Shown here piece after piece: positions 16,007-29,378 of a DNA stretch of 64,000 nt. Every line of letters starts with the position of its first letter. The stretch's first letter is position 1. The notes under the pieces were generated by a model, which did not search any database, was not told where the DNA came from, and saw nothing but the letters and a program-made list of their open reading frames with translations. Both the position numbers and the translations under genes were made by a program. Source of the stretch: Alphaproteobacteria bacterium (lineage in GTDB: Bacteria > Pseudomonadota > Alphaproteobacteria > Rickettsiales > SXRF01); the NCBI GenBank assembly GCA_025362975.1, contig JANYES010000019.1, positions 1 to 64,000 of the forward strand, read 5' to 3'.

Positions 16007-16041
16007 AAAGCTCTATCGTGATTAAAAAAACAGGAGCATCT

Positions 16042-17028
16042 ATGGCAGACCCAAAAACGGTAACGATCGGCGCGGATAACAAAGGCGAAATCACTTTTAA
16101 GGCCAATTCCGACGGCACGTATAAAGTCAGCTTCGGCGCTGAAGTGGCGGAAGCCAAGTTTGACCCGAAAACTATGACCCTTGCCATCGATGGCAAAGAC
16201 CGCAAACTCAAACTGCCTTACGAAACCCCGATCCGCGTCGAATTTCAGGCACCCGGCACGCAAGTGACCGGCGGCAGCGTGCGCGTCGCCAAGGAAAGCA
16301 AAGAAAAACCGCTGGTGCTCACCACACGCTGGGACATGGCCGCTGTGCATAGCACTAAGGACGGTCTGGCCAGTAACCCGCGCATCACCGCTACCCCGGA
16401 CAAGGACCTGCAGGTTAGCGCACCGACGAATCATGGCGCTGCGCTCAAATCGCCGCAGGTGATTATCATCGAAAAAGACGCCCCCGGCGCTGATTTCGTG
16501 TCGGCGTCGAAACCGGATGGCAAAAGCTTCCTGACATTAACTTCCGATAAGGAAAAGGCCGTGGATGACTATACCCAAATGCGCATTTCGACGCTCAATA
16601 ACTTCCAGAACATCTTAAAAAAACCGCTGTCGGCGAAGAATACCCCGGCGTTTAAGGAACTCGCCGATCTGCGCCACAGCTACGGTTTCCCGGACAGCAC
16701 GCCGCAGAACGCCAACCAGAAAATCGTGCCTATCGATAAGGCCAAGATTTTGGAAGATTTCAAGAAAGCTGCGGAAAAGGCCAATGAGAAGAAAGACGGT
16801 AAGGAATCCGGCGGCAAAGGGAAATCCGCCTCCGCCGATCCGCTGAAAGACGCGCTGGAACGCGGTCTTGCCACCAGCACGGTTGAAACCGAAGAACCGA
16901 TGGCCCTGCCTAACCGCGACGCCCTCGCCGCAGCGCTTGCTGCGGGTACGAGCGTTGCCGTCGGCGGTGCAGCGAGCCTCCCCCCGGCCCTGAAAGCTGC
17001 TGCGATTGACAAGGGTGGCCGCGGCTAA
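16042..17028 (+). CDS. Unrecognised protein, twin paralogue 1
   Basis: A 328-residue protein I do not recognise. The start at 16042 follows CAGGAG. No signal peptide or membrane segment is visible. The N-terminal 200 residues are β-rich and polar (VTIGADNKGEITFKANSDGT…). A Lys/Glu/Gly-rich linker (about 245-270) leads into a C-terminal module, DPLKDALERGLATS then EEPMALPNRDALAAALAAGT and SVAVGG. The same module, in the same place, closes the next gene's protein, and both share a mid-protein segment ending in FLTL/FLTF. The two genes are therefore tandem duplicates that have diverged mainly in their N-terminal parts. Function and location are unknown. Confidence 0.8.
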   Translation: MADPKTVTIGADNKGEITFKANSDGTYKVSFGAEVAEAKFDPKTMTLAIDGKDRKLKLPYETPIRVEFQAPGTQVTGGSVRVAKESKEKPLVLTTRWDMAAVHSTKDGLASNPRITATPDKDLQVSAPTNHGAALKSPQVIIIEKDAPGADFVSASKPDGKSFLTLTSDKEKAVDDYTQMRISTLNNFQNILKKPLSAKNTPAFKELADLRHSYGFPDSTPQNANQKIVPIDKAKILEDFKKAAEKANEKKDGKESGGKGKSASADPLKDALERGLATSTVETEEPMALPNRDALAAALAAGTSVAVGGAASLPPALKAAAIDKGGRG

Positions 17029-17050
17029 GGCTAGTTTTCGCCGAGTAATA

Positions 17051-17059
17051 TGCTATAAT
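17051..17059 (+). promoter_or_regulatory. Extended -10 promoter of the second twin paralogue
   Basis: TGC plus a perfect TATAAT (17054-17059) forms an extended -10 promoter, 31 bp before the start codon of the second paralogue, so this gene has its own promoter. The -35 region (near 17031) is poor. AGAGG at 17081 is the ribosome-binding site. Confidence 0.5.
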
Positions 17060-17090
17060 GCCCGTCTGCATATAGTAACCAGAGGTTTTT

Positions 17091-18161
17091 ATGGCTGATA
17101 AACTCGTCCAGGTTAAAGATAAAACCAACGCCCAGATCGTGATGATCTACCAGACCGAAGGCGCCAACAAAGGCACCTACAAGGTCACCGTCGACGATAA
17201 GGTGCTGCTCAACGATTTCAAAGCGACCGACACGCTGCATGTCGACGGCCCGGCTGGCGCACACGCCACGCTCACCATCGCCGATAATGCCGACCCCGCA
17301 ACCAAAACCGCCGGCGGTTTCCCACCGCGCGTGCGCATGGATTTAACCGCCAACCTCGTCGGCGGTTCGTTCCGCCAGACGAAAAACAGCAAGGCAATGA
17401 TTCGCATGTCCGCGCACCATGCCAGTGTTATCGGCCTGACCACCATCCCCATTCCCGAAGTCGATAAAGAAGGCAAACCCGTACTTGATAAAGATAAAGA
17501 GCCGAAGCTGACCGGCAAAATCGAACTGTCCAGTCCGGATAAGGCTTACACTTCGCCTAAGGGTGCTACCAGCCTGCAAATGAGCCACCGTGCCCGCCCG
17601 GCCACCCTCATCGTCGAAGACGGCGCACCAGGCGTACAGTTTTTAAATCCGGGCGACAAACCCGCGCCGGGAAAAGTAGTTGAGCCGTTCCTGACTTTTG
17701 CCAAACCGGGTGCTGGCGATGTCGGCGAACCGGTCAAAGGCCAGAAACTTAATATCGGCTCCGAAGGCGGCTACGACAAATTCCGCGAATCGATTCTTAA
17801 ACGTTCCGAAGGCATCATCAACCGCACCGACCCCGCCATTAAAACCGAAAAAGACTTCGTGGAAAAAGCCAAATACCACGGGCTGGACCGTATCGAGCCA
17901 AAGACTGTCGGCAAGGTGAAAGTGATCAATGAAGAACCACACAAAGAGCCGGAAAAAAAGGGTGATAAAAGTAAATCGTCTGTCGATCCGATGAAAGATG
18001 CACTGGAGCGCGGCGTGGCTGCCGCAGATATAGAAGAACCGGCAGCACTACCTAATCGTGACGCGCTCGCTGCGGCGCTGGCCACGGGCACGAGTGTCGC
18101 CGTCGGCGGTGTTCCAGCACTGCCTGTAGCAGCCAGAGCCACGGACAAAGGCAGGGGATAA
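17091..18161 (+). CDS. Unrecognised protein, twin paralogue 2
   Basis: A 356-residue protein, tandem paralogue of the preceding gene and also unrecognised. It lacks a signal peptide and membrane segments. Shared landmarks are TLIVEDGAPGVQFLNPGDKP in the middle (compare IIIEKDAPGADFVSASKPDG in the twin) and the C-terminal DPMKDALERGVAAADIEEPA, ALPNRDALAAALATGTSVAV module with the same Lys-rich linker before it. The near-identity of the last ~45 residues against weak similarity elsewhere suggests selection on the C-terminal module, for example as a targeting or interaction tag (inference). It ends just ahead of a hairpin and the tRNA-Gly gene. Confidence 0.8.
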   Translation: MADKLVQVKDKTNAQIVMIYQTEGANKGTYKVTVDDKVLLNDFKATDTLHVDGPAGAHATLTIADNADPATKTAGGFPPRVRMDLTANLVGGSFRQTKNSKAMIRMSAHHASVIGLTTIPIPEVDKEGKPVLDKDKEPKLTGKIELSSPDKAYTSPKGATSLQMSHRARPATLIVEDGAPGVQFLNPGDKPAPGKVVEPFLTFAKPGAGDVGEPVKGQKLNIGSEGGYDKFRESILKRSEGIINRTDPAIKTEKDFVEKAKYHGLDRIEPKTVGKVKVINEEPHKEPEKKGDKSKSSVDPMKDALERGVAAADIEEPAALPNRDALAAALATGTSVAVGGVPALPVAARATDKGRG

Positions 18162-18238: not shown

Positions 18239-18312
18239 GCGGGTGTAGTTCAATGGTAAAACGGCAGCTTCCCAAGCTGCATACGAGGGTTCGATTCCCT
18301 TCACCCGCTCCA
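18239..18312 (+). tRNA. tRNA-Gly(CCC), island integration site
   Basis: A complete 74-nt tRNA including an encoded CCA. The acceptor stem GCGGGTG pairs with CACCCGC; the anticodon stem-loop GCAGC-TTCCCAA-GCTGC gives anticodon CCC (glycine); the T arm is GAGGG-TTCGATT-CCCTT. The last 27 bases recur at 29352-29378, marking this tRNA as the attachment site of the genomic island that follows. The gene stays intact because the island carried a copy of its 3' end. Confidence 0.97.
18286..18312 (+). repeat. Left attachment repeat (3' end of tRNA-Gly)
   Basis: The 27 bases from AGGGTTCGATT to CCGCTCCA cover the T arm, acceptor strand and CCA of the tRNA. They match 29352-29378 with one difference (C here, A at 29365). 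This is the attL of the island. Confidence 0.9.
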
Positions 18313-18338
18313 TTATTTTTCAATGACTTAGATGCATA

Positions 18339-18358
18339 TGCAGTAAAAATGCAGTAAA
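18339..18358 (+). repeat. Putative integrase arm-binding sites, left end
   Basis: TGCAGTAAA occurs twice (18339-18347 and 18350-18358), 11 bp apart, just inside the left attachment repeat. The same word recurs just inside the right end (29269-29277), with variant and inverted copies beside it. Short repeats at both ends of an island near the att sites are typical integrase arm-type or excisionase sites. Nothing else is recognised in 18313-18437. Confidence 0.45.
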
Positions 18359-18437
18359 CTGACATGCAAAAATAATCTTTTCTCTTCTAATTCATAAGTG
18401 AAACGGTAAGCATGAGAGGACTGTCTGGCTAAAGCTT

Positions 18438-18776
18438 TTAAGCTTCCAGAAGTATCTGTGCGGCACGAGGTGGAAGTTTTGAGGTTACAAGAGCTGTTTT
18501 GCTATCGCGTTGTTTGGGTAAAACTTTTTTCAACCCATTTTGGCTATTGCGCCAGCGGACAAAATCTTTCCAGAAGATAACACCGCGAAATACGGGAAAT
18601 CCCGGAAGATGAAACCACTCACGTGCCGTTGAATAGGATACGCCAGCACAGACGGCAAATTCTTTGGCGTTCAAAGCTTGATCCAAATGCCGCTTCTCCA
18701 TGACGGCTTCAAGCGTGATGCCTCGCAATTGCTTATCTTGCCTTTGAGCTGCACGCGTTAGGGTTTTGCTAGCCAT
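18438..18776 (-). CDS. Excisionase/AlpA-like helix-turn-helix protein
   Basis: A 112-residue basic protein. The central segment LNAKEFAVCAGVSYSTAREW followed by FHLPGFPVFRGVIFWKDFVR has the winged-helix pattern of recombination directionality factors (Xis/AlpA), which steer tyrosine integrases towards excision. The ATG at 18776 is preferred over an upstream TTG (18791). It lies directly inside the left attachment repeat and 17 bp after the TraJ-like gene, in the same direction, so the two probably form an operon controlling excision and mobilization. Confidence 0.6.
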   Translation of the reverse strand: MASKTLTRAAQRQDKQLRGITLEAVMEKRHLDQALNAKEFAVCAGVSYSTAREWFHLPGFPVFRGVIFWKDFVRWRNSQNGLKKVLPKQRDSKTALVTSKLPPRAAQILLEA

Positions 18777-18793
18777 ATGCAATGCCACCAATG

Positions 18794-19168
18794 CTAAAAT
18801 TTCTGCACCGTCTCAAGCAGCAAGTCTTGAATTGCTTGAATGTTATGCAGCAATGTATGAATATTCGGCAACTCCTGTTCCTTAGCTAATGCCTGCCAGC
18901 CGTCATTATTGGTTAGCCACATTTTGAGCAGGCCGCCCAATCTTCCAAGGTCGGAATTGACTTTAGACATTTCCATCACTGCATCGGCATCAAAGATGCC
19001 TTTGGGCTTGTAATGCAATCCAAGATTGCGCAAATAGGTGGCAACTGACATGGAGCAATTTTTAGCATTCTGTTTGATAGCTATATTTTCTGCGGGTAAT
19101 ACAGGCACGCGAAGATGATGTATTCGTTGCCTCGATCTCGATGGTTTCATGTCCATAAGATTGCCCAT
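18794..19168 (-). CDS. TraJ/MobC-like relaxosome accessory protein
   Basis: A 124-residue protein with the layout of RP4-type TraJ/MobC proteins. A ribbon-helix-helix-like N-terminus (HLRVPVLPAENIAIKQNAKN then SMSVATYLRNLGLHYKPKG) is followed by the conserved MEMSKVNSDLGRLGGLLKMW helix. TraJ binds oriT near the nick site and recruits the TraI relaxase (RP4 knowledge). The gene starts about 150 bp from an RP4-like oriT and reads away from it, as expected for a traJ beside its origin. No relaxase gene is present, so it would have to work with a relaxase from a helper element. Confidence 0.72.
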   Translation of the reverse strand: MGNLMDMKPSRSRQRIHHLRVPVLPAENIAIKQNAKNCSMSVATYLRNLGLHYKPKGIFDADAVMEMSKVNSDLGRLGGLLKMWLTNNDGWQALAKEQELPNIHTLLHNIQAIQDLLLETVQKF

Positions 19169-19315
19169 AAAGTAGCAATTAACGCCTCACATGGCGCATA
19201 ATTCTAGTTTACAACCATTACATGTTCTATGGGAGTGGTAGCCAGTGCCATAATATGTAGGAGTAATCCTGTTTATGTCGTCGGAGATGGGATTTGGAGG
19301 GGCTTTTTCTTAAAC

Positions 19316-19409
19316 AAGGCGGCAGCTAGATGCCCAAAGGGACAACTTATCGTTGAGCACAAAGTGCGAATAAGATGTAATGTTGGCCAACATTACACAT
19401 CCTGCCCAC
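19316..19409 (+). other. oriT: RP4/IncP-type origin of transfer, left copy
   Basis: Landmarks in order: CGTTGAGCAC (19351-19360), GTGCGAATAAG (19364-19374), a perfect 20-bp palindrome GTAATGTTGGCCAACATTAC (19377-19396), then ACATCCTGCCC (19397-19407). In RP4 oriT the same blocks appear in the same order (CGTTGAGCAC…GTGCGAATAAG, an inverted repeat, then TATCCTGCCC with nicking at ATCCTG/C). The predicted nick is after 19404 on the + strand, so transfer would lead rightward into the cargo. The rest of 19169-19562 holds nothing else convincing. An inverted second copy lies at 28106-28199. Confidence 0.85.
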
Positions 19410-19562
19410 TTTACTTCCTCAACTTTCTCTATAACCTAGTTAGCTCACTTTGGACAGTAAAGGAAATGCGCTAAAAAAATAATATGGATATAAATAATCC
19501 TCAAAACGCATTAATCTTTAAGCGATAATTTACCCCCCCCGTGCTCAAAAAATCAGTTATTT

Positions 19563-20216
19563 ATGCGCATATTATTAATTGAAGACGATCCGTTACTTGG
19601 TAAAGCACTGGAAACCGGGCTTAAGCAAGCTGGCTATAAACCGGAATGGATGCAAGACGGGGAAAGCGCGTTGCTAGCAGCGCAGGTCAATGTTTTCGAC
19701 GCCATCGTGCTCGACATTAATCTACCCAAATTATCGGGGCTGGAGGTGCTCAAGCAAATCCGACTGTCTTCCAATGTACCCATTATTATCATGACTGCCC
19801 GCTACAGCCTCGACCAGAAGGTCGAAGGGCTTGACCTAGGCGCGGATGATTACCTTGTAAAGCCTTTTGAGCTACCTGAATTGTTAGCCCGTCTTCGGGC
19901 GATTGTACGGCGTAGCCAGAATCGCACTAATCCTATTATTAGCTGCATGGACGTAGAACTCGATACCGTGGCTCGCACCATCAAAAAATCAAACGAATGG
20001 ATTAAACTTTCCGCCAGAGAATACCAGATAGTTGCTTTGCTCATGCAACGCGTAGGTAAAATCGTAAGCAAATCAGAGCTTGAGGAGCAAATCTATAGCT
20101 GGGATGGCAGTGTCGAAAGCAATACCATAGAAGTCGGTATTTATAATATCCGCAAGAAACTCGGGCATGAGCTTATCACGACTATTCGCGGCGTAGGCTA
20201 TGTAGTCAATCCATGA
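19563..20216 (+). CDS. OmpR-family response regulator
   Basis: A 217-residue two-component response regulator. The receiver domain has the acidic pocket (EDD at 7-9), the phosphoacceptor Asp51 in VLDINLP and the later TAR and KPFELPELLARL segments. The C-terminal winged-helix DNA-binding domain ends …SNTIEVGIYNIRKKLG…IRGVGYVV, typical of the QseB/PmrA/TctD group. Its stop overlaps the start of the sensor kinase gene by 4 bp. Candidate targets are promoters with 11-bp-spaced direct repeats at 21596-21614 (before mlaA) and 8364-8385 (before the other PepSY gene); this is inferred from spacing only. Confidence 0.95.
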   Translation: MRILLIEDDPLLGKALETGLKQAGYKPEWMQDGESALLAAQVNVFDAIVLDINLPKLSGLEVLKQIRLSSNVPIIIMTARYSLDQKVEGLDLGADDYLVKPFELPELLARLRAIVRRSQNRTNPIISCMDVELDTVARTIKKSNEWIKLSAREYQIVALLMQRVGKIVSKSELEEQIYSWDGSVESNTIEVGIYNIRKKLGHELITTIRGVGYVVNP

Positions 20217-21577
20217 TAAAAAAATCACTTACTACCCAATTATTAAAAACAGTCACATTACCGATTATTACAGTGATAATTGTGGTGGGAATCCTAGCGT
20301 ATTGGAGTTCTGAAGATGAAATTTTTGAAGTCTATGATTCACAGCTTATCACGATGGCGAATGTGTTATGGTCAATGGATAAGAGTGGACATAATCCAAG
20401 CCAAACTCCAACTAAGGTGACATCCGAAAGCCTGAATCTTTCAGAGGAAAATCAGGCAGCCTTAAACGAATATGCCAAATGGCGTTCTTTCCGTTACTGG
20501 AAGAATGGCAAGCTTGTGATTGCTTCCGACAATGCACTGCCAGAATCCACCCCTCCCTTTCTAGAAGGCTTCACCGATACAGTGCTGACAGACGGGGAAT
20601 GGCGTGTGTTTTCCCTTTATATCAAGGATGAACACAGTATCGCGGAAGTCGCTGAAAAACGCACGGCGCGAAGTGAAATTATCGAGAAGATAATGACGGG
20701 ATTGCTATTACCGCTTATACTCTCACTACCCGTTATCATATTTTTTATCTGGAAAGGCATTCAATGGGGTCATAAAGACTTGCGGCGGTTTACTTCTGCC
20801 ATTAAAAGACGCTCTCCTGATGATTTATCGAATATAAATACAGCGCATATTCCGCATGAAATAGAACCGTTGGCCGAAGCTATCAATCAATTACTTGCCA
20901 AGCTAAAAAATTCACTGGCGCAAGAGCGGCTTTTTACTGAAAATGCTGCGCATGAATTACGCACCCCCTTAGCCATATTAAGCATCCAGACCAATGTTAT
21001 CTTTAATGCCCATAACCAGGGCGAACGCGATAGTGCCTTACAAGAGCTGTCCAAAGGTGTAAGTAAAGCCTCGAAGCTGCTAGACCAATTGCTTTTACTG
21101 GCAAGAATCAGCCATCAGATCATTCCACTCGCACCAATTACCCTGTATGACCATACACAAAAAGCTGTTAAGGCCGCTTACCCTGAAGTGCTGAAGAAGA
21201 AAATTGACATATCTTTAGGTGGCAAAGAAAACATAAAAATACTCTCAAATGCACCGTTTTTAGCCATCTTGCTTGGCAATCTCATTGATAACGCCATCAA
21301 GTACTCCCCCATTGAAGGCAACATCACATTAAGTGTTGGTATGGATGAGAATATACCCACTCTAATGATTGTCGATAATGGCTCCGGCATTCCTGAAAAT
21401 GAATATCCAAATGTTTTCAAACGTTTTTACCGGCTTGAAGGCAATACGCAGGAAGGTAGTGGCCTAGGGCTTGCCATTGTCCAAAATATTGCAGAAATTC
21501 TGAATATTAGAATTATGCTTTTCACTCCCACCACCCATCAGGGGCTTGGTATAAAGCTATCATTTCTAGCTCTTTAG
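20213..21577 (+). CDS. Sensor histidine kinase (QseC/TctE-like)
   Basis: A 454-residue membrane kinase, partner of the regulator upstream. A transmembrane helix near residues 15-30, a periplasmic domain to about 160 (…WRSFRYWKNGKLVIASDNAL…) and a second transmembrane helix (ILSLPVIIFFIWKG) lead to HAMP, the phosphoacceptor H box NAAHELRTPLA (His about 246), and an ATPase domain with N box GNLIDNAIKYS and G boxes DNGSGIP and GSGLGLAI. The signal sensed is unknown. Neighbouring cargo (MlaA, MlaC, PepSY) suggests envelope stress or lipid imbalance as the input, but that is inference. Confidence 0.93.
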   Translation: MIKKSLTTQLLKTVTLPIITVIIVVGILAYWSSEDEIFEVYDSQLITMANVLWSMDKSGHNPSQTPTKVTSESLNLSEENQAALNEYAKWRSFRYWKNGKLVIASDNALPESTPPFLEGFTDTVLTDGEWRVFSLYIKDEHSIAEVAEKRTARSEIIEKIMTGLLLPLILSLPVIIFFIWKGIQWGHKDLRRFTSAIKRRSPDDLSNINTAHIPHEIEPLAEAINQLLAKLKNSLAQERLFTENAAHELRTPLAILSIQTNVIFNAHNQGERDSALQELSKGVSKASKLLDQLLLLARISHQIIPLAPITLYDHTQKAVKAAYPEVLKKKIDISLGGKENIKILSNAPFLAILLGNLIDNAIKYSPIEGNITLSVGMDENIPTLMIVDNGSGIPENEYPNVFKRFYRLEGNTQEGSGLGLAIVQNIAEILNIRIMLFTPTTHQGLGIKLSFLAL

Positions 21578-21595
21578 ACGTATTCCCTCTCACAC

Positions 21596-21614
21596 TTCAG
21601 TTTTCATTCAGTTT
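21596..21614 (+). promoter_or_regulatory. Direct repeat upstream of mlaA-like gene, possible regulator site
   Basis: TTCAGTTT occurs at 21596-21603 and again at 21607-21614, an 11-bp period on the same strand, 62 bp before the mlaA start. Tandem sites with this spacing are what OmpR/PhoB-class regulators bind, and such a regulator is encoded immediately upstream. The match is short and could be chance. Confidence 0.35.
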
Positions 21615-21675
21615 GGCAGAGTAGTTTTGCCAATTGTTAAGAACTGGGCATAGCAGTGCCCTTGGGAATAAAGCT

Positions 21676-22434
21676 ATGACTATTTTACCTAAAATACGAA
21701 TACTGGCTTTGGGCATGGTGTCTGCCGCCATTTTTTCGTCTATGGCCAATGCTGCAAACATGGCGAATGATGATGAACTGGATATACCCGTTGCTTCAGC
21801 TGAGGTTCCGGCGAACGATTCGCTGGAAGGGTTTAATCGCCCCATTTTCTCTTTTAATGTCACGTTGGATAAATATGTTTTGAAGCCAGTTTCCAAGGGG
21901 TATCACTGGGTTTTTCCTGGTGTAGTGCGTGAGTCGATTGGCAATGTTTTCGATAATCTCGGTGAACCCGTCAATTGTATCAACGGCATTTTGCAATTAA
22001 ACCCGCAAAAGAGTTTCACTGCCTTCTGGCGGTTTGCATTAAATTCCACCTTTGGCTTTGCAGGATTACGCGATTTTGCCGGGCATGACGCAGGGTTAAT
22101 CCATCATAAATATTCTTTTGGCGAAACATTGGAAACCTATGGGGTTGGCTCTGGTTCTTACCTTGTCGTGCCTCTGCTTGGGCCATCCACAGTGCGTGAT
22201 GCGGCGGGTGATGTGGTGGATACTGTCATCGACCCATTCACCTATATTACCCCGGCACGGATTGATAATGCGCTGACAGTGGTGGAAGTGGTCGACCAGC
22301 GCGACCAGAACGCGACACTGATTGATGAGATTTACGACAATTCGCTTGAACCATACATTGCAATGCGGAGTGCCTATTTACAGAATAAAAGCTTTGTTTC
22401 CCGTAATGGCAAAATCAAACAACTCGATGACTAA
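21676..22434 (+). CDS. mlaA: MlaA (VacJ)-family outer-membrane lipid-asymmetry protein, no lipobox
   Basis: A 252-residue MlaA homologue. The family core is clear: DSLEGFNRPIFSFNVTLDKY, LKPVSKGYHWVFP, then FGFAGLRDFAGHDAG and YLVVPLLGPSTVRDAAG. MlaA sits in the outer membrane and removes misplaced surface phospholipids, passing them to MlaC. Most homologues are lipoproteins; here the signal peptide (MTILPKIRILALGMVSAAIF…ANA) has no Cys at the cleavage site, so it is probably cut by signal peptidase I. It precedes the MlaC homologue gene by 24 bp. Chromosomal mlaE and mlaF lie 6 kb to the left, outside the island. Confidence 0.92.
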   Translation: MTILPKIRILALGMVSAAIFSSMANAANMANDDELDIPVASAEVPANDSLEGFNRPIFSFNVTLDKYVLKPVSKGYHWVFPGVVRESIGNVFDNLGEPVNCINGILQLNPQKSFTAFWRFALNSTFGFAGLRDFAGHDAGLIHHKYSFGETLETYGVGSGSYLVVPLLGPSTVRDAAGDVVDTVIDPFTYITPARIDNALTVVEVVDQRDQNATLIDEIYDNSLEPYIAMRSAYLQNKSFVSRNGKIKQLDD

Positions 22435-22458
22435 TTATCAAACCAAAGGACACACTTC

Positions 22459-23115
22459 ATGAAACACATTCCCATTGTACCCGCTATCCTTCTTGCCGCC
22501 TTTCTCCAGTTACCTGCCAGTGTTTCCTATGCTGCGGATTCCAGCCAGCATGTAGCGAAGCAAGCGGCCAAGGACACAGCCATGACCAAGGAAGTATTTA
22601 TTGATAACATGGCGGAACAAGTAACAAATGTGCTGAAAAACGATAAGAAAAGCTTTGCCGAAAAACAAGCTGCACTACGCAGCATGTTTGCGGAAGTCGT
22701 CGATACGGATTGGATTGCCAAATTTGTGCTGGGTAAGGCATGGAAAGAAGCGACACCACAGCAAAAAGAGAAATACACCGAACTTTATCGCACTTACCTG
22801 ACCGAAACCTATGTCTCCAAATTTGATGAAGAATCGGGAAGCAAGGTGAAGGACATCAAAGTCAAAGGCATTAAAGAAGCTTCAGGCGACACGTTCTCTG
22901 CCCATACTGAAATCGTGCAAAGTGGTACTGAGCCTCCTGTAAAAGTGGATTACCTGCTGCGCCAGAAAGAAGGGCAGTTTAAGGTGATTGACATCACCAT
23001 CGAAGGCATCAGCCTGCTTGCCACCCATCGGCAGCAATTCAGTGCGCTGGCGAATGCAAACGGTATCGACGCGGTCATTACAAAACTGACCGAATTCACT
23101 ACTCACAAAGCATAA
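22459..23115 (+). CDS. mlaC: MlaC-family periplasmic phospholipid carrier
   Basis: A 218-residue secreted protein; the signal peptide ends PASVSYAA. The mature protein has the MlaC/Ttg2D layout: repeated helices (QVTNVLKNDKKSFAEKQAAL), the AxFVLGKAWKEATPQQKEKY segment, and the β-sheet part (YLLRQKEGQFKVIDITIEGI) that forms the lipid pocket. MlaC carries phospholipids across the periplasm between MlaA and the inner-membrane Mla transporter. The gene has its own ribosome-binding site (AAAGGA) and follows mlaA in one operon. An mlaA-mlaC pair on a mobile island without the inner-membrane transporter is unusual. Confidence 0.93.
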   Translation: MKHIPIVPAILLAAFLQLPASVSYAADSSQHVAKQAAKDTAMTKEVFIDNMAEQVTNVLKNDKKSFAEKQAALRSMFAEVVDTDWIAKFVLGKAWKEATPQQKEKYTELYRTYLTETYVSKFDEESGSKVKDIKVKGIKEASGDTFSAHTEIVQSGTEPPVKVDYLLRQKEGQFKVIDITIEGISLLATHRQQFSALANANGIDAVITKLTEFTTHKA

Positions 23116-23177
23116 CGGCATTGGGCAGGGCGTAGAATAACCCTGCCCATCACTCACATGCCAATGTTTCACTCAAC

Positions 23178-23199
23178 CAGCGGTTGGCATGTACCGCTG
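23178..23199 (+). promoter_or_regulatory. Hairpin just ahead of the small-protein gene
   Basis: CAGCGGT (23178-23184) and ACCGCTG (23193-23199) form a 7-bp stem with an 8-nt loop, ending 2 bp before the strong AAAGGAGG ribosome-binding site of the small gene. There is no T tract, so a 5' leader structure is more likely than a terminator. Confidence 0.35.
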
Positions 23200-23216
23200 A
23201 TAAAGGAGGTCAATGT

Positions 23217-23426
23217 ATGACTAACATTAGCAGTGCGCCTGTCGCGTCACTGTCGCTGCCTAAAACTGCCCCTGTGGCAGCTGGCGGCGATATTGATGGA
23301 GATGGGGCGGGAGGCGGGGCTGTGAAGCAACCTGCTCCGCAAAGCAGCAATTTCTCAAATTCAGCGGTAATACTGAGTTTGAGTCCGGCTGCACAAGCTA
23401 TTGTCAATGGTACAAGCGGCGCATAA
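23217..23426 (+). CDS. Small Gly/Ala/Pro-rich protein with SLSPAAQAIV motif
   Basis: A 69-residue protein of unknown function, preceded by a very strong AAAGGAGG. It is low in complexity (Ala, Gly, Pro, Ser) and has no signal peptide. The only conserved part is the C-terminal VILSLSPAAQAIV. The 137-residue protein at 27673-28086, at the other end of the island cargo, carries a matching VNVSLSAPAQAVV in a similarly disordered context. The two probably belong to one family of short, mostly unstructured proteins. No function is proposed. Confidence 0.65.
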   Translation: MTNISSAPVASLSLPKTAPVAAGGDIDGDGAGGGAVKQPAPQSSNFSNSAVILSLSPAAQAIVNGTSGA

Positions 23427-23490
23427 GTAGCGTCGTAAAAACCACCCCTGACGTTTTTATGAGTTCATGAAAGCGTTAGGGGAATATTTT

Positions 23491-23511
23491 GAAGCGTTAT
23501 TTCGACGCTTC
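23491..23511 (+). terminator. Hairpin between small-protein and PepSY genes
   Basis: GAAGCGT (23491-23497) and ACGCTTC (23505-23511) form a 7-bp stem. A second, longer imperfect stem lies just upstream (CCCCTGACG near 23445 with CGTTAGGGG near 23473). The absence of a T run makes the terminator assignment tentative. Confidence 0.3.
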
Positions 23512-23528
23512 ACCACACTAAATAAAAG

Positions 23529-23918
23529 ATGGTTATGATGCGAATTATTATCCCAACACTGCTGATAATAGGCTTATCCACGCCAGTCCTTGCGGAAGGG
23601 CTTTCATGTAGCATTCGCCCAGCAGCAGATACACCTACCATCGACCTTCCCAATCTTGCAAAGATTACTCAAGCGGATGCGCAAAAAATTGCTCTTGATG
23701 ATGTTAAAGCAAAAAACAAGAAAACGCTTGATGGTGAGTTAGAAGTTGAAAATGGATGTCTTATCTATTCCTTCGACATCCGCATTACTAAAAAATCAGG
23801 GCTTGAAGAAATTATGATTGATGCCGGAACGGGAAAAATCCTTTCACATAAGCATGAAAGCGCCGCACAAGAGGCCGTCGAACATGCCCAAGATGCCAAA
23901 TCCTCAAAAATGCCTTAA
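23529..23918 (+). CDS. PepSY-domain secreted protein (island copy)
   Basis: A 129-residue secreted PepSY protein. The signal peptide ends STPVLAEG; the domain runs from KITQADAQKIALDDVKAK to EIMIDAGTGKILSHKHES. It is a paralogue of the protein at 8431-8832, with nearly the same closing strand and a conserved central ENGCLIYSFDI. Translation may begin at any of three nearby ATGs (23529, 23535, 23538). The next gene encodes a COG4705 membrane protein, and a two-component system lies upstream; sets of these three kinds are found together in other proteobacteria (from memory), which suggests a shared envelope-sensing function. Confidence 0.85.
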   Translation: MVMMRIIIPTLLIIGLSTPVLAEGLSCSIRPAADTPTIDLPNLAKITQADAQKIALDDVKAKNKKTLDGELEVENGCLIYSFDIRITKKSGLEEIMIDAGTGKILSHKHESAAQEAVEHAQDAKSSKMP

Positions 23919-23940
23919 TAGCAACATGAACATCATAGCT

Positions 23941-24690
23941 ATGAAGCATCAACCAAGCATGAGCAAAGTGCCTGTCGTCACTCTGGCTTTCTGGGTCATT
24001 AAAATCCTTGCGACAACGCTGGGTGAAACGGGGGGTGATGCCGTATCCATGTCGATGAACCTTGGCTATGCTATAGGCAGCGTCATTTTTATTGGTTTTT
24101 TCCTTGTGAGCGTAATTGCTCAAGTAACTGCAAAATCTTTTCATCGCTTTTTATATTGGGCAGTTATCGTGGCAACCACTACAGCTGGCACAACAATGGC
24201 AGATTATGCGGATCGTTCCCTTGGCATTGGTTATATAGGGGGTTCCCTTGCGCTTTTTGCCATGCTGATGGCGGTGCTTGGATTGTGGTATCTCGCTGTC
24301 GGCTCTGTATCTGTAACGCATATTACTTCACGTAAAGTCGAAACATTCTACTGGGTTACTATCCTGTTTTCCAACACGCTTGGAACCGCTCTTGGTGATT
24401 TCCTTGCTGACAGTTCCGGGCTTGGCTATGAAGGCGGCGCGCTGGTTTTCTCCGCCTCGTTAGTGTTAGTAGCTGCCGCTTATTACTATACGAAATTATC
24501 TCGCACTTTATTGTTCTGGGCAGCCTTTATCCTCACTCGTCCACTGGGTGCTACGGTCGGGGATATTCTTACCAAAACACATGAGCATGGGGGGCTGGAC
24601 TTAAGCCGTTTCAGTTCTTCAGCAGTCATCGCCATCCTTATGGTTGTCTGTATTTTATGTACGTCCAGAAAAGCTGGCAACCATTCATGA
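23941..24690 (+). CDS. COG4705-family multispanning membrane protein
   Basis: A 249-residue inner-membrane protein with eight hydrophobic helices and the COG4705 hallmark, a repeated unit: VIKILATTLGETGGDAVSMS, then ATTTAGTTMADYADRSLGIG, then ILFSNTLGTALGDFLADSSG, then LTRPLGATVGDILTK. Each repeat carries a Thr-x-G-x-x-x-x-D type motif inside a helix, so a fourfold internal repeat with buried acidic residues is visible. This would suit a cation transporter, but function is unproven. The start is uncertain (ATG at 23926, 23941 or 23959). It follows the PepSY gene by about 22 bp and is probably co-transcribed. Confidence 0.8.
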   Translation: MKHQPSMSKVPVVTLAFWVIKILATTLGETGGDAVSMSMNLGYAIGSVIFIGFFLVSVIAQVTAKSFHRFLYWAVIVATTTAGTTMADYADRSLGIGYIGGSLALFAMLMAVLGLWYLAVGSVSVTHITSRKVETFYWVTILFSNTLGTALGDFLADSSGLGYEGGALVFSASLVLVAAAYYYTKLSRTLLFWAAFILTRPLGATVGDILTKTHEHGGLDLSRFSSSAVIAILMVVCILCTSRKAGNHS

Positions 24691-24710
24691 TACCTGTGGA
24701 TAGGCGAACC

Positions 24711-25472
24711 ATGATTGAAAAACGCGATAGCTGGGATATTGAAAAATACCAAAAACTGGTAAACTCCTTGCCAAAGGCAGGGACTATTGCACTTACTTTC
24801 CTCCAGCCTAATGCGGGAGAGAAAATTCTGGATTTAGGTTGCGGCGAAGGCACATTAACAGAAAAAATCCAGTCTATGGGTTGCCATACGCTAGGCATTG
24901 ATTCCAGCCCCAAGATGATCAAAGCCTGTGCATCACGTAATATAAACGTGCAACTCATGGATGCGCGCTTTCTGAAGTTTGATGAAGAGTTCGATGCCGT
25001 ATTTTCTCATGCTTCGCTTCACTGGATGAATGGGGCTGAAATGGTGGTGAAAGGCGTTGCTAAGGCATTAAAAAATGGCGGACGGTTTATTGCAGAGTGT
25101 GGCGGCATCGGAAATGTCAGCATTATTGAATCGAGCCTGATAAACGCTGTCATCAACGCCGGATTCGATGCTCACAGCCCTTGGTACAATCTTGATGAAA
25201 CCGATTACAAAGCCATGCTTGAAAGTCATGGGCTTAAGGTTGAGTTCATTCACCTGATTCCCATCATGGAGCCTTTACGCAATGGTATTCGAGCATGGCT
25301 TGAAATTTTCGCACATCAGTTTCTGATTGCCGTTCCTCATGAAATGCACAGCCATATTTTTGATGAAGCCGAAAAACTCATGCGCCCTTTATTATGCAAT
25401 GAAGAGGGAATGTGGCACGCTGATTATGTTCGGCTGTCAGTGAAGGCGATAAAAACACCTGTTTCTGCTTGA
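24711..25472 (+). CDS. Class I SAM-dependent methyltransferase
   Basis: A 253-residue methyltransferase. Motif I is KILDLGCGEGTLTEKI, followed by the acidic residue in LGIDSSPKM and a post-motif FDAVFSHASLHWMNGAEMV, as in trans-aconitate-methyltransferase-like enzymes that act on small molecules. An alternative start at 24687 would overlap the upstream stop (ATGA). The substrate cannot be inferred. It lies between the COG4705 gene and the broken TPR-sulfotransferase gene, all in one direction. Confidence 0.88.
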   Translation: MIEKRDSWDIEKYQKLVNSLPKAGTIALTFLQPNAGEKILDLGCGEGTLTEKIQSMGCHTLGIDSSPKMIKACASRNINVQLMDARFLKFDEEFDAVFSHASLHWMNGAEMVVKGVAKALKNGGRFIAECGGIGNVSIIESSLINAVINAGFDAHSPWYNLDETDYKAMLESHGLKVEFIHLIPIMEPLRNGIRAWLEIFAHQFLIAVPHEMHSHIFDEAEKLMRPLLCNEEGMWHADYVRLSVKAIKTPVSA

Positions 25473-25479
25473 GGGTAAA

Positions 25480-27500
25480 ATGCCTGCATCCAAGGAAAAG
25501 GCTGTAATACACTGGCTCGGAAGGTCTTATACCCTTGCACAGGCAAACGTATTGGCAGTCAAGGAATACACGCGCAAACATTACAAAACCGTCGCAGGTA
25601 TTTACCGCCTTATTCTTGCCAGAACTCCTGACGATGTAGATGCCTGTAATAATCTGGGATGCGCCTTGCGCGAAATGGGTCGTTATGATGAGGCTTTGGC
25701 TATTTACGACAAGGTTATAGCGCTTAAACCCGACTATGCTATGGCTCACAATAACCGGGGAGTCATACTGCAAACGCTGAAACGGTATGAAGAGGCTTTG
25801 GTGAGTTGCGATAAAGCCATTGCACTCGAATCCACATACAGCATGGGTTGGCAAAACAGGGGAACCATCCTTCAGGATATGGAACGCTATGATGAGGCTC
25901 TGGCAAGTTATAACCAGGCCATCAATCTTAAAATCGATAATGCTGCACTATGGTATAGCCGTGGCATTACACTGCATGAAATGAAGCGGTATAAAGATGC
26001 GCTTGCCAGCTACGATAAAGCGGTCAAACTCAAACCGGATTATGCCAAGGCGTATAATAACCGTGCCCTGACCCTCCATGCCATGACGCTCTACACCAAG
26101 GCGTTAGCAAGTTATGCTAAAGCCATAGTGCTAAAGCCTGATTCTGCCATGCTCTATAATAACCAAAGCATAACCTTGCTTGAAATCAGTTGCTACAGCG
26201 ATGCGCTGATAAGTAGCGACAATGCCATTGCCCTTGACCCCGACTATGCGGAAGCCTAGTACAATCACAGCGCGGCTTTACGGGAATTAAAGCGATATGA
26301 CGAGGCACTGGCCAGTTGTGACAAAGCCATAGCACTTAAGCCGGACTACGCGATGGCTTACAATAATCGGGGCGACATTTTGGTGAGCAAGGGCGATATG
26401 CCAGAAGCAGAGGAAATGTTTGCCAAAGCACTTTCGCTAAAACCGGATTTTGCAAATGCCTTTATCAATCTGACCAGTATCCGAAAGTATTGTAACGTTA
26501 ATCATGTGGATATAAAGACCATTCAAACAATACTCACTAAACCTGATACCTCGTCAGATGATAAAGAATTGCTATATTTCGCGTTGGGCAAATTTTTGAT
26601 GATTGCGGTGCTTATGATGAGGCGTTTGAATATTACCGGCAGGACAACCAACTCTGTAATGCTAAGGTTTGTTATAATGCCAAAAAATTAAGCAAGTTTG
26701 ATGACGATATCATCAATGTATTCAGCAAAGATTTGCTGAATACATTGCTTTCGATTGCGCCGGACTGCCCATCCCCTTTGTTTATTGTCGGTATGCCACG
26801 GTCAGGCATTACGCTTATGGCGAGTATTTTATCCAATCACCCCGCGATACATACCGCAGGGGAATTATCCACAATAATAGACTTTACCTCACAATTACCA
26901 AAACTAATGGGAAACATCATAGCCTATCCGCAAGCAGCGAAGCATATTGTTCCTGCTGTCGCCTCACATTTTATCCACACCTATAATGCCCGACTGAAAC
27001 GTGATGCTCCACCTGATATTACCTACATTATTGACAAGCAACCGCTCAATTTCAGGCATCTTGGGTTAATCGCCATGTTGTTTCCCAAGGCACGGATTAT
27101 TCACTGTACTCGCCATCCTTTAGATACCGCTCTTTCCAATTATTTCCAGCGTTTTTTATTGTCTCTTGATTATTCATTCGATTTAGAAAATGTCGGGCAT
27201 TTTTATAATCAATATGCAAAAGTCATGAAGCATTGGCGTAAAATTATTCCTTTGCCACTACTTGAAATCAGCTATGAGGATATGATTGCAGGTACGGAGC
27301 AAACAGCGCGACAAGCGATAGAGTTTCTGGATTTGGAATGGGATGAGCGATGCCTTTCTCCCCATACCAATCCATACGCAGTAGAAACCGCTAGCAAATG
27401 GCAGGTGCGTCAACCGATATACCAGCAATCCGCGGGAAGATGGCGGCATTATGAGAAACATCTGGAACCTCTGAAAGAGATACTGCAATTTTGTCAGTAA
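25480..27500 (+). pseudogene. TPR-sulfotransferase gene broken by a stop and a frameshift
   Basis: The intact reading begins at 25480 with tandem tetratricopeptide units of 34 residues (pattern YDEALA-YDKAIALKPDYA-A-NNRG), about eight in all. TAG at 26257 interrupts the seventh (…DPDYAEA*YNHSAALRELKR…), probably from TGG. The reading then resumes in the same frame until a T run at 26593-26597, where one missing T shifts the frame; the shifted frame continues YDEAFEYYRQ into a sulfotransferase domain (FIVGMPRSGITL with the 5'-PAPS loop, later RIIHCTRHPLDTALSNYFQR) ending at 27500. TPR-sulfotransferases modify surface or secreted molecules. The gene is probably inactive unless these are sequencing errors. 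Confidence 0.85.
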
Positions 27501-27672
27501 GACGTTTGGAAACAAAACGACATAATCAAACAACATATTGATTAGTTTGTATTAAGTTTATTCCGCCAATCGTATTGCAACCAGCTAATTAATTACTTAG
27601 TAACGTTTAAAGCGTACTATAAACAAGTGCTATATGTAATGGCATGAAACATCTCATGTAGGAAACAATATC

Positions 27673-28086
27673 ATGACATCTATCAGCACACCGGTTACTC
27701 CTGTAGTAATACAAGCACAGTCGCCAAGCCCACAGGTTAAACAGGCGATAGCATCCCCTTCAAGTTCTTCTGAAAGTACCTTCGGAGAAGCAGTGAATGT
27801 GAGTTTAAGCGCACCTGCACAGGCAGTTGTTGCAAATCAGCCTGCGTCTTCCAGCACTTCCCCTGAGACTTCATCCGCACCTGTTACACCACGAGCTAAA
27901 GAGCAAGCATCTGTAGCACCCACCGCAGCACCTGTTGTTAATATCGCCGCACTTATCTCCGCCGCCAAACAGAAGGTAGCACCTCAAGTAGGCATAAATG
28001 GTGCGAGTGATGTTGTGGATAGCAAAGGCAATATCAGCAAAGTCCAGCTGGCTATCGAAATCGCTGAACAAGCAAGAAAAGGCTAA
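27673..28086 (+). CDS. Ala/Pro/Ser-rich protein with SLSAPAQAVV motif
   Basis: A 137-residue protein of unknown function, low in complexity (Ala, Pro, Ser, Val, Thr) and probably disordered, without a signal peptide. Near residue 40 it has VNVSLSAPAQAVV, matching the C-terminal motif of the small protein at 23217-23426. A short ordered-looking C-terminus (VNIAALISAAKQKV … KVQLAIEIAEQARKG) may form a helix. Upstream, 27501-27672 shows no gene. It is the last cargo gene before the right-hand oriT copy. Confidence 0.65.
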   Translation: MTSISTPVTPVVIQAQSPSPQVKQAIASPSSSSESTFGEAVNVSLSAPAQAVVANQPASSSTSPETSSAPVTPRAKEQASVAPTAAPVVNIAALISAAKQKVAPQVGINGASDVVDSKGNISKVQLAIEIAEQARKG

Positions 28087-28105
28087 GCCAAGATGTAATA
28101 ACGAG

Positions 28106-28199
28106 GTGGGCAGGATGTGTAATGTTGGCTAACATTACGTCTTATTCGCACATTGTGCTCAACGATAAGTTGCCCTGCCGGGCATACGGCTACCGCCTT
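28106..28199 (-). other. oriT: RP4/IncP-type origin of transfer, right copy (inverted)
   Basis: Reverse complement of this stretch reproduces the left oriT with few differences: CGTTGAGCAC, GTGCGAATAAG, the arm repeat with one mismatch (centre TAGC rather than TGGC; palindrome region 28119-28138), then ACATCCTGCCC. The predicted nick is on the minus strand at CAGGAT (28111-28116). Transfer from here would lead leftward into the cargo, mirror-symmetric to the left copy. The stretch ends 2 bp from the integrase stop codon. Confidence 0.85.
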
Positions 28200-28201
28200 A
28201 A

Positions 28202-29251
28202 TTAACCCCTTATGGCCTGTGTAGGAAATTGCACTGCGTCACGCCATTGTGCCACGTCTTCGACTTTTTCCCGTTGGTAAATCTGGTGAATCAAGTCAGA
28301 GGAATGATTGACGAGGCGCATCGCCACTTCACGAGGCACACCCGCACGGCGTAGTCGATTAACGTAGGTGACGCGCAAGCAGTGGAAACATAAATGTGAC
28401 ATTTTGATTTAAATAAAAAATTGCTGCCAGCGGCGTGATGGCTGGAAGGGGAATTCAACTGTGAATTCCTGCTTTGCTTTATGAATGCGTTCAAATAATG
28501 GGCGTAGTGCAGACGGCATCGGAACAGAGAATGCCCGATCTTCGCCGCCTTTCGGTGAAGGGAAAGTGATTTTGTTCTCTTTAAAATCAATACAGTGGAG
28601 CGGCAAGCGCGTTTCTCGCAAACGACAGCCCGTATGCAGGGAAATAGCAAACGCAATTTGCATCCACTCCGGTTCGCTTTTCAATGCTTCTTGGATTACA
28701 TGTATTTCTTTATCCGTCAGTTCTGGCTTCTTAGCAGCCTTGTCACGACGTAGCTTGAGGCTTACAAGCGGGTTGGCATCGGCATGGCCAAGACGTACTG
28801 CTTCACCCATAATCATGGCGAGGAGCTTCAATTCCATAATGGCGGTATTGCGCCCGCTTGTTTTACCGGTTTTCTTTTTGTAACTTGTACGCCACTCAAT
28901 ATACTCCAAAGCATTGCGGTAGGTAATGGCACGGGGTGAATGGTAGTGGTTTTCTTGCAGCCAGCTTGCTAGCCAAGACCAGTTACCGGTATAACGCTGG
29001 AAAGTGCTAGGGCTTTCGCAATGGCGTTCCAGATACTGATGCACCCAGCTATCCCAGCCGCCACCGCTAAGTTCACCTACGTTACGGTTGAGTTCTTTGG
29101 CTTCCAGTTGCGCACGTAGGACACGTGCCTTGACCGTTTCTGCGGGATCATCTGCCCGCAGGCCGGTGGATTTATTACGACGCGTTCCGTCACTATCCAT
29201 GAATTGGACGAACCAGAAGGGCGAGTTTTTCTTCTTGTAAATGGAGGCCAT
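28202..29251 (-). pseudogene. Tyrosine recombinase (integrase) interrupted by an in-frame stop
   Basis: Transcribed leftward from 29251. The first 280 residues (MASIYKKKNSPFWFVQFMDS …) contain the SAM-like and core domains and the first catalytic Arg (LHTGCRLRETRL); then TAA at 28409 ends the reading. In the same frame the rest follows immediately: CFHCLRVTYVNRLRRAGV with the HxxR pair, LVNHSSD, and YQREKVEDV with the nucleophile Tyr, up to 28202. With one stop codon replaced, the protein would be a complete ~349-residue integrase. As written, catalytic His, Arg and Tyr are cut off, so the island probably cannot excise on its own. Confidence 0.85.
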
Positions 29252-29259
29252 AAAACGAG

Positions 29260-29286
29260 TGCAGTTTGTGCAGTAAACTTACTGCA
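29260..29286. repeat. Putative integrase arm-binding sites, right end
   Basis: TGCAGTTTG (29260-29268), TGCAGTAAA (29269-29277) and an inverted TTACTGCA (29279-29286) lie just upstream of the integrase start and match the TGCAGTAAA pair at the left end (18339-18358). The arrangement fits integrase arm-type sites that may also regulate the integrase promoter. Confidence 0.45.
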
Positions 29287-29351
29287 CAAATTCAGAAATT
29301 CAAGGGAAAATATAGCACTATCAACCACTATAAACCATCATCCTAGTAACA

Positions 29352-29378
29352 AGGGTTCGATTCCATTCACCCGCTCCA
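29352..29378 (+). repeat. Right attachment repeat of the island
   Basis: A copy of the last 27 bases of tRNA-Gly with one change (A at 29365). It marks the right edge of the island; core sequence resumes after it. The 110 bp to the next gene contain a short dyad (TATACCA/TGGTATG, 29431-29449) and no gene. Confidence 0.9.

Follow-up and report, generated by a model that had tools for sequence, protein, structure and literature searches.

Facing pairs of IncP/RP4-type transfer origins at the cargo borders of putative mobilizable islands in an alphaproteobacterial draft genome

Why would a genomic island carry two origins of transfer (oriTs), and why would these face each other across its cargo? 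The question is raised by a stretch of 64,000 nucleotides (nt), hereafter the window, which comprises positions 1 to 64,000 of contig JANYES010000019.1 in genome assembly GCA_025362975.1 of an alphaproteobacterium (Rickettsiales; SXRF01). In an island of approximately 11 kb (about 18313-29378) at a tRNA-Gly gene, an initial annotation made from the letters alone had described two near-identical inverted copies of a 94-bp sequence resembling the oriT of RP4. A repeat search of the window confirmed the inverted pair, with 86% complementarity, but showed the length to be slightly short, the arms being 100 nt each (19310-19409 and 28106-28205) with a spacing of 8696 nt. The two units are as follows.

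19310..19409, + strand: left oriT unit; core 19351-19409; predicted nick 19404/19405; DNA fold z -3.1
28106..28205, - strand: right oriT unit; core 28106-28164; predicted nick 28111/28110; DNA fold z -2.6

Each copy contains, in order, CGTTGAGCAC, a small hairpin, GCGAATAAG, an arm repeat, and ATCCTGCCC, and the RP4 oriT region, used as the comparison for block order, has the same succession, as had been proposed. The ordered pattern TTGAG..GCGAATAAG..ATCCTGCCC was matched twice in the window, at the two arms, and in 0 of 100 dinucleotide shuffles. Using the left copy as query in a whole-genome search, the right copy was recovered with an E-value of 1.1e-27, so that the pair lies far beyond chance; a chance origin was ruled out by this value together with the shuffles. 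The arm repeat of the left copy, GTAATGTTGGCCAACATTAC, is indeed a perfect palindrome (22 bp if the T and A on its two sides are counted), and that of the right copy has one central mismatch. The core is on the + strand in the left copy and on the - strand in the right copy. Assuming, as we do, that the cut in these oriTs falls after the G of the nick consensus, an RP4-like nick after ATCCTG is predicted to put both nicked strands inward, toward the cargo, in agreement with the initial annotation. The MOBP nick consensus is (C/T)ATCCTG(C/T) (PMC3772185; here and below, papers are cited from the portions of their text that were available).

Judged by sequence, both copies are IncP/RP4-type (MOBP11) oriTs, with TTGAG, GCGAATAAG, the arm repeat, and YATCCTGY in the order of that class. 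The oriT units fold as DNA (z-values above) and the hairpins covary: in an alignment of 13 copies, which was fitted to the structure of the model, two hairpins were paired in 98.7% of cells, two-sided changes were found at 5 of the 12 hairpin pairs, and pairing plus changes was reached by 0 of 500 shuffles. Pairing dropped to 20-53% in slid versions of the hairpin model, and further pair types in the hairpins were not above shuffles (279 of 500). The motif order is shared by plasmid pAKD4, which we take to be an IncP-1 plasmid, and by 44 stretches, many alphaproteobacterial or from Burkholderiales, that were found in a block-pattern scan of a genome contig collection. (One of the stretches, L075, looks like a chance match.) In pAKD4 (GQ983559; MOBP), traI and traJ are on one strand with the oriT motif facing traK, and this traJ/oriT arrangement is that of the left copy in the window. 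The TraJ-like gene noted earlier beside the left copy (18794..19168) was recovered with the NCBIfam model TraJ as best match (7e-35, 120 bits, under the curated cut-off of 134), and its product has 45% identity over 116 amino acids to the pAKD4 TraJ region. A traJ-type gene upstream on the opposite strand is present for the left copy only, with none adjoining the right copy. When plasmids were searched with the left copy, the matches obtained were all partial, none covering 80%. The window thus resembles the IncP-type oriT region of pAKD4 and RP4 in block order, in the arm repeat beside the nick consensus, and in traJ upstream on the other strand, whereas an IncP-type plasmid has a single oriT, next to a traI and a traK of its own, and the island has two facing oriTs and neither of those genes.

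The suspicion that the pair is meaningful was supported by the rest of the genome (28 contigs in draft, 98.3% complete), where two further inverted pairs are present. In total, eight oriT copies were found, two single and the others in three inverted, inward-facing pairs. The single oriTs, at C16:36701 and C3:80005, each adjoin NikA and TraI genes (Pfam) as well as VirD4-, TraF-, and TrbL-like genes (TraF being presumably the right name), and by this gene content the two elements are called ICE-like, after integrative and conjugative elements (ICEs). A PF03432 search gave just two relaxases genome-wide, one beside each single oriT; the genome therefore holds two elements that carry a relaxase and share the oriT type of the pairs. 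The second pair, C16:139118(+)/147798(-), lies beside tRNA-Met with a spacing of 8.7 kb and encloses zorA, zorB, zorC, and a 1279-codon open frame, a putative zorD named by position rather than by model, which ends about 50 nt before the right copy. Outside this pair are a serine recombinase and a NikA gene on the left and a gene with no assigned function on the right, and a 17/20 repeat of the tRNA-Met end is located at C16:148775-148794. The third pair, C23:3127(+)/7614(-), lies beside tRNA-Pro with a spacing of 4.5 kb and encloses a type IIG restriction enzyme and two small genes with no Pfam match, with a tyrosine recombinase outside on the left and AlpA on the right. In the 16 kb examined there, neither a NikA gene nor an attachment repeat within 5 mismatches of 20 was found. 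Within each of the three pairs the main cargo open reading frames (ORFs) run in one direction. In the same genus, G010:C24 (L113) has a tRNA-Met with neighbour genes similar, by eye, to those of the Zorya site (G000:C16, L009); the place of the Zorya island is taken there by a serine recombinase, one oriT, and a TraI gene truncated where the contig stops.

Within pairs, the cores are identical at 56/59, 52/59, and 57/63 positions. Outside the core, identity falls to 57-74% over the 42 nt upstream and, beyond that, to roughly 50% over a further 100 nt on each side. In an alignment read by eye, 11 of the 16 core differences are located in hairpin loops or spacer, and the Zorya pair holds most of the others. 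Conservation of the cores between diverged flanks argues that both copies of each pair stayed functional. Across islands, core identity is 76-95% over about 60 nt. The C23 pair is similar to the oriTs of two other elements, ICE3 and an element of the same genus that carries a relaxase, and the window and Zorya pairs form another subtype; identity to a resident ICE-like oriT is 94% and 91% for the C23 copies and 84-89% for the other two islands. The island without NikA therefore has the oriTs closest to a resident one, as a borrowed relaxosome would demand, in this one case. Expansion of the helper range through two oriT subtypes was considered and is unsupported, each pair having one subtype. 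Recent duplication is likewise unsupported for C23, where the left copy is 90% identical to its partner and 94% to ICE3, and the flanks have diverged in all three pairs.

The remaining features of the window island are listed below.

18239..18312, + strand: tRNA-Gly (ccc) gene, integration site (ARAGORN)
18293..18312, + strand: left attachment repeat, 3' end of the tRNA gene (1 mismatch in 20 against 29359-29378)
18438..18791, - strand: helix-turn-helix (HTH)/excisionase-like gene (weak PHROG matches only: HTH best E 0.0015, excisionase 0.009)
18794..19168, - strand: NikA/TraJ-like relaxosome accessory gene (Pfam NikA-like 1.6e-17)
19563..28086, + strand: cargo (ORF calls and Pfam)
28202..29251, - strand: tyrosine recombinase frame (open N-terminal part matching a PHROG integrase at 2e-20; one in-frame stop, at 28409)
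29359..29378, + strand: right attachment repeat (19/20 copy of the tRNA-Gly 3' end)

The element is best read as a relaxase-less mobilizable genomic island. The island context given in the initial annotation was supported by the tRNA-Gly gene, the attachment repeats, and an integrase, whose frame is interrupted; a longer form of the attachment repeat has 86% identity over 37 nt, and the G+C fraction is 0.44-0.49 inside the island and 0.55-0.57 outside. The oriT pair is bordered externally by the weakly matched HTH gene, which has no Pfam or NCBIfam match, and the NikA-like gene on the left, and by the tyrosine recombinase on the right. In plain translation the recombinase frame, apart from its stop, extends to 28202 and so runs into the right oriT unit at its outer edge. 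Cargo ORFs encode a response regulator, a histidine kinase, MlaA, MlaC, PepSY, DUF347, methyltransferase, TPR, and sulfotransferase proteins, and unknowns, and all those with a family match are on the + strand. No PF03432 relaxase is present in the island, no TraI, VirD4, TraF, or TrbL match was found in the window, and no replication gene was found among the window proteins tested with Pfam. A plasmid with two inverted oriTs was rejected as a description, the element being a chromosomal island at a tRNA gene and not an autonomous replicon. Three ORFs with TPR and sulfotransferase matches (25480-26259, 26353-26691, and 26733-27500, + strand) look like pieces of a single broken gene. Outside the island, two neighbouring ORFs at 16018-18161 (+ strand) have a common C-terminal repeat (80% over 79 nt) and are probably tandem paralogues.

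We consider it probable that this relaxase-less island is mobilised in trans by the resident conjugative elements, and that its facing oriTs allow either strand to be transferred, cargo first. The relaxase, coupling protein, and secretion channel would be borrowed from resident conjugative elements with the same oriT type. A resident TraI, with the NikA of the island or of the helper, would nick either oriT of the excised circle, and the nicked strand would lead through the cargo and then around the rest of the circle until it returned to the oriT from which it started. Since the oriTs face each other across the cargo, the cargo would enter first whichever oriT is used. Inverted oriTs should be unable to trap each other, since on a displaced strand the partner copy is present only as its complement; a strand displaced from the left would meet the right copy in a form with no nick site, so that relaxase action alone would not delimit the segment. 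The second start site is probably kept because it raises or insures mobilization, and its contribution may be more initiation, cargo-first entry, or bidirectional transfer. By analogy with plasmids, the inverted arrangement would reflect the loss of same-strand pairs through relaxase-mediated deletion. The presence of three inward-facing pairs with different recombinases in one genome was counted in favour of mobilization in trans.

As controls, other genomes were searched using two oriT models, R1 (narrow) and R2 (broad). In the close oriT family, a pair is present in 3 of 4 relaxase-less islands versus 0 of 6 relaxase-bearing elements, a tally that leaves out three more divergent Azospirillum matches and in which two of the six are bounded by contig ends (ICE3 at 2.6 kb past the oriT on the leading side, G010:C24 at 0.8 kb on the relaxase side).

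Several observations weigh against the proposed mobilization. The in-frame stop at 28409 means that the window island may be fixed in place. The search for relaxases, on which the label relaxase-less rests, covered the PF03432 family. No uninterrupted site was found in 8 relatives with a joined-flank query, for which the tRNA-Gly was matched in all 8 and the right flank separately in 3. The estimated contamination of the draft is 3.6%. The fourth relaxase-less island of the close family, at tRNA-Thr in G014:C19 (L114; 6460-15618), has a perfect attachment repeat, NikA, and cargo with one oriT, and no PF03432 relaxase was found in the G014 genome; this island and the wider prevalence of single oriTs indicate that two copies are not needed for this lifestyle. 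(The G014:C19 cargo includes an arginyl-tRNA-synthetase-like ORF, named by eye.) Finally, whole-genome R2 scans for an inverted pair within 20 kb gave 1 of 25 genomes (Azospirillum G726) and then 0 of 13. Judged by record titles, these 38 genomes were those of 43 of the 44 block-pattern stretches (L075 omitted) and G014; up to 150 candidates were scored per genome. Among these 38 other oriT-bearing genomes, a nearby inverted pair was found only on one plasmid-like Azospirillum contig.

That contig, G726:C22 (L110, L111), has a Rep_3 initiator and oriTs at 2110-, 2362+, and 20299-; two of its three RP4-type oriTs are 185 nt apart, back to back, and the sole PF03432 match of the genome is on a different contig. 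G1117 has two oriTs on the same strand, 34 kb apart. Surveys with R1 gave matches in 3 of 16 family, 3 of 343 order, and 7 of 385 class genomes, own genome included. Among other genomes, a class survey gave matches in 6 of 384 and a phylum survey in 9 of 397, and in none of these did an inverted pair lie nearby; 12 candidates were scored per genome, so that weak copies may be missed. Among the 44 block-pattern stretches (8 kb or less), 12 have a TraI-like match and 22 a recombinase match but no TraI-like match; one of the 22, L054, has TraI just past the stretch edge, as others may. Single-oriT loci with no nearby relaxase thus look common and the paired form rare. A rule that relaxase-less elements are paired was rejected, as it holds in the close family but fails in the wider set. 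In IMG/VR, 0 stretches had the first pattern, 9 had a looser pattern, and 5 loci had a NikA profile, and none of the 14 loci had two oriT matches (R2, E 0.1). Three IMG/VR contigs filed as viral (L146, L147, and L149) have NikA- and TrbL-like genes and an RP4-type oriT and, from this gene content, probably represent conjugative elements. The NikA proteins of the islands match phrog_19586. RP4-type oriTs also occur beside serine recombinases in Thalassospira and other Alphaproteobacteria (L036, L037, L038, L042, L044, L065, L066, and others). There, ACGACAG follows shortly behind the nick, and in L044 its complement is present upstream as well. At these loci the oriT may coincide with the attachment site.

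SGI1-type islands carry one oriT. They resemble the window island in being integrative and helper-dependent and in having an oriT and accessory mobilization proteins, but their oriT and proteins are unrelated to those found here (PMC6414798, PMC9299015). The initial annotation knew of no description of a cassette-like behaviour of such a pair; two inversely oriented oriTs on one element have, however, been published. IncX/R6K plasmids have two oriTs in long inverted repeats on one element (PMC3402527), but with their own relaxase (taxC) and plasmid replication, whereas the window element is integrative and relaxase-less. The plasmid pBuzz (Moran and Hall 2019; PMC9282650) has two inversely oriented oriTs, no relaxase, and a co-resident conjugative plasmid that mobilises it, but is a 2-kb rolling-circle plasmid with another oriT type and no framing of cargo. 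Staphylococcal pWBG749-type plasmids likewise depend on a relaxase supplied in trans, and all 42 two-oriT plasmids have the oriTs on opposite strands, for which the loss of DNA between same-strand oriTs by relaxase recombination, seen as a pWBG762 deletion in 1 of 11 exconjugants, was offered as the reason (PMC4652767); these are plasmids, mostly with different oriT subtypes (58 of 67), whereas each pair here has one subtype. The pCERC7 family (PMC9282650) also combines its own NikA-type adaptor and oriT with a borrowed relaxase but, unlike the window island, consists of small plasmids with an IncI-like oriT. Dual oriTs are also named for ICEclc, pAD1, and R6K (PMC5587640). Inverted oriT pairs are thus known on plasmids, and pairs framing the cargo of an integrative island are apparently new, in that no description was present among the matches listed for open-licence papers, which is weak evidence of absence.

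The same staphylococcal data bear on the alternative that survives best, that a second oriT was acquired by chance and that inverted pairs persist because they are not deleted, with no advantage. A survival bias toward opposite strands in those plasmids (PMC4652767) and the rarity of paired islands outside the source genome fit neutral redundancy, but the occurrence of three pairs in a single genome, each facing inward from the borders of its cargo, and the conserved cores and diverged flanks of both copies make it rather unlikely. A more elaborate proposal, which we hold to be distinctly unlikely, is a two-way cassette in which a helper relaxase sends both complementary cargo strands, each cargo-first and then the opposite flank. 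If true, the strands could anneal in one recipient to give double-stranded cargo with homology on both sides; cargo could then be established with neither lagging-strand priming nor a working integrase, and islands could exchange at their oriTs. It is very unlikely that the oriTs serve mainly as homology or relaxase-recombination borders for exchanging cargo cassettes among islands: the same oriT type does occur at module borders with different cargo and backbones, but neither a shared backbone with swapped cargo nor the reverse was seen, nor a second cargo orientation or exchanged cassette, and the stretch of cross-island core identity is short for homologous exchange. Hardly credible are the ends of a transposon family, suggested by long near-identical inverted repeats around the cargo but refuted by the same sequence standing single beside NikA and TraI genes in relaxase-bearing elements and beside traJ in an IncP-type plasmid, with no match to a transposase family for those cargo proteins of the window that were tested and, read by eye, no evident target duplication at the outer edges.

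Mobilization in trans thus remains the preferred reading. The three islands suggest, from their sequences, hitchhiking elements that could be moved from either end by the transfer enzyme of another element. Relaxase-less islands are hard to spot as mobile, and a facing oriT pair at the cargo borders is a readable signature. With the paired layout it could also be tested cleanly whether adding a second oriT in inverted orientation increases transfer. Since anti-phage or restriction systems (Zorya and type IIG) lie within two of the three pairs, the layout may serve to carry such genes on the conjugation machinery of others.

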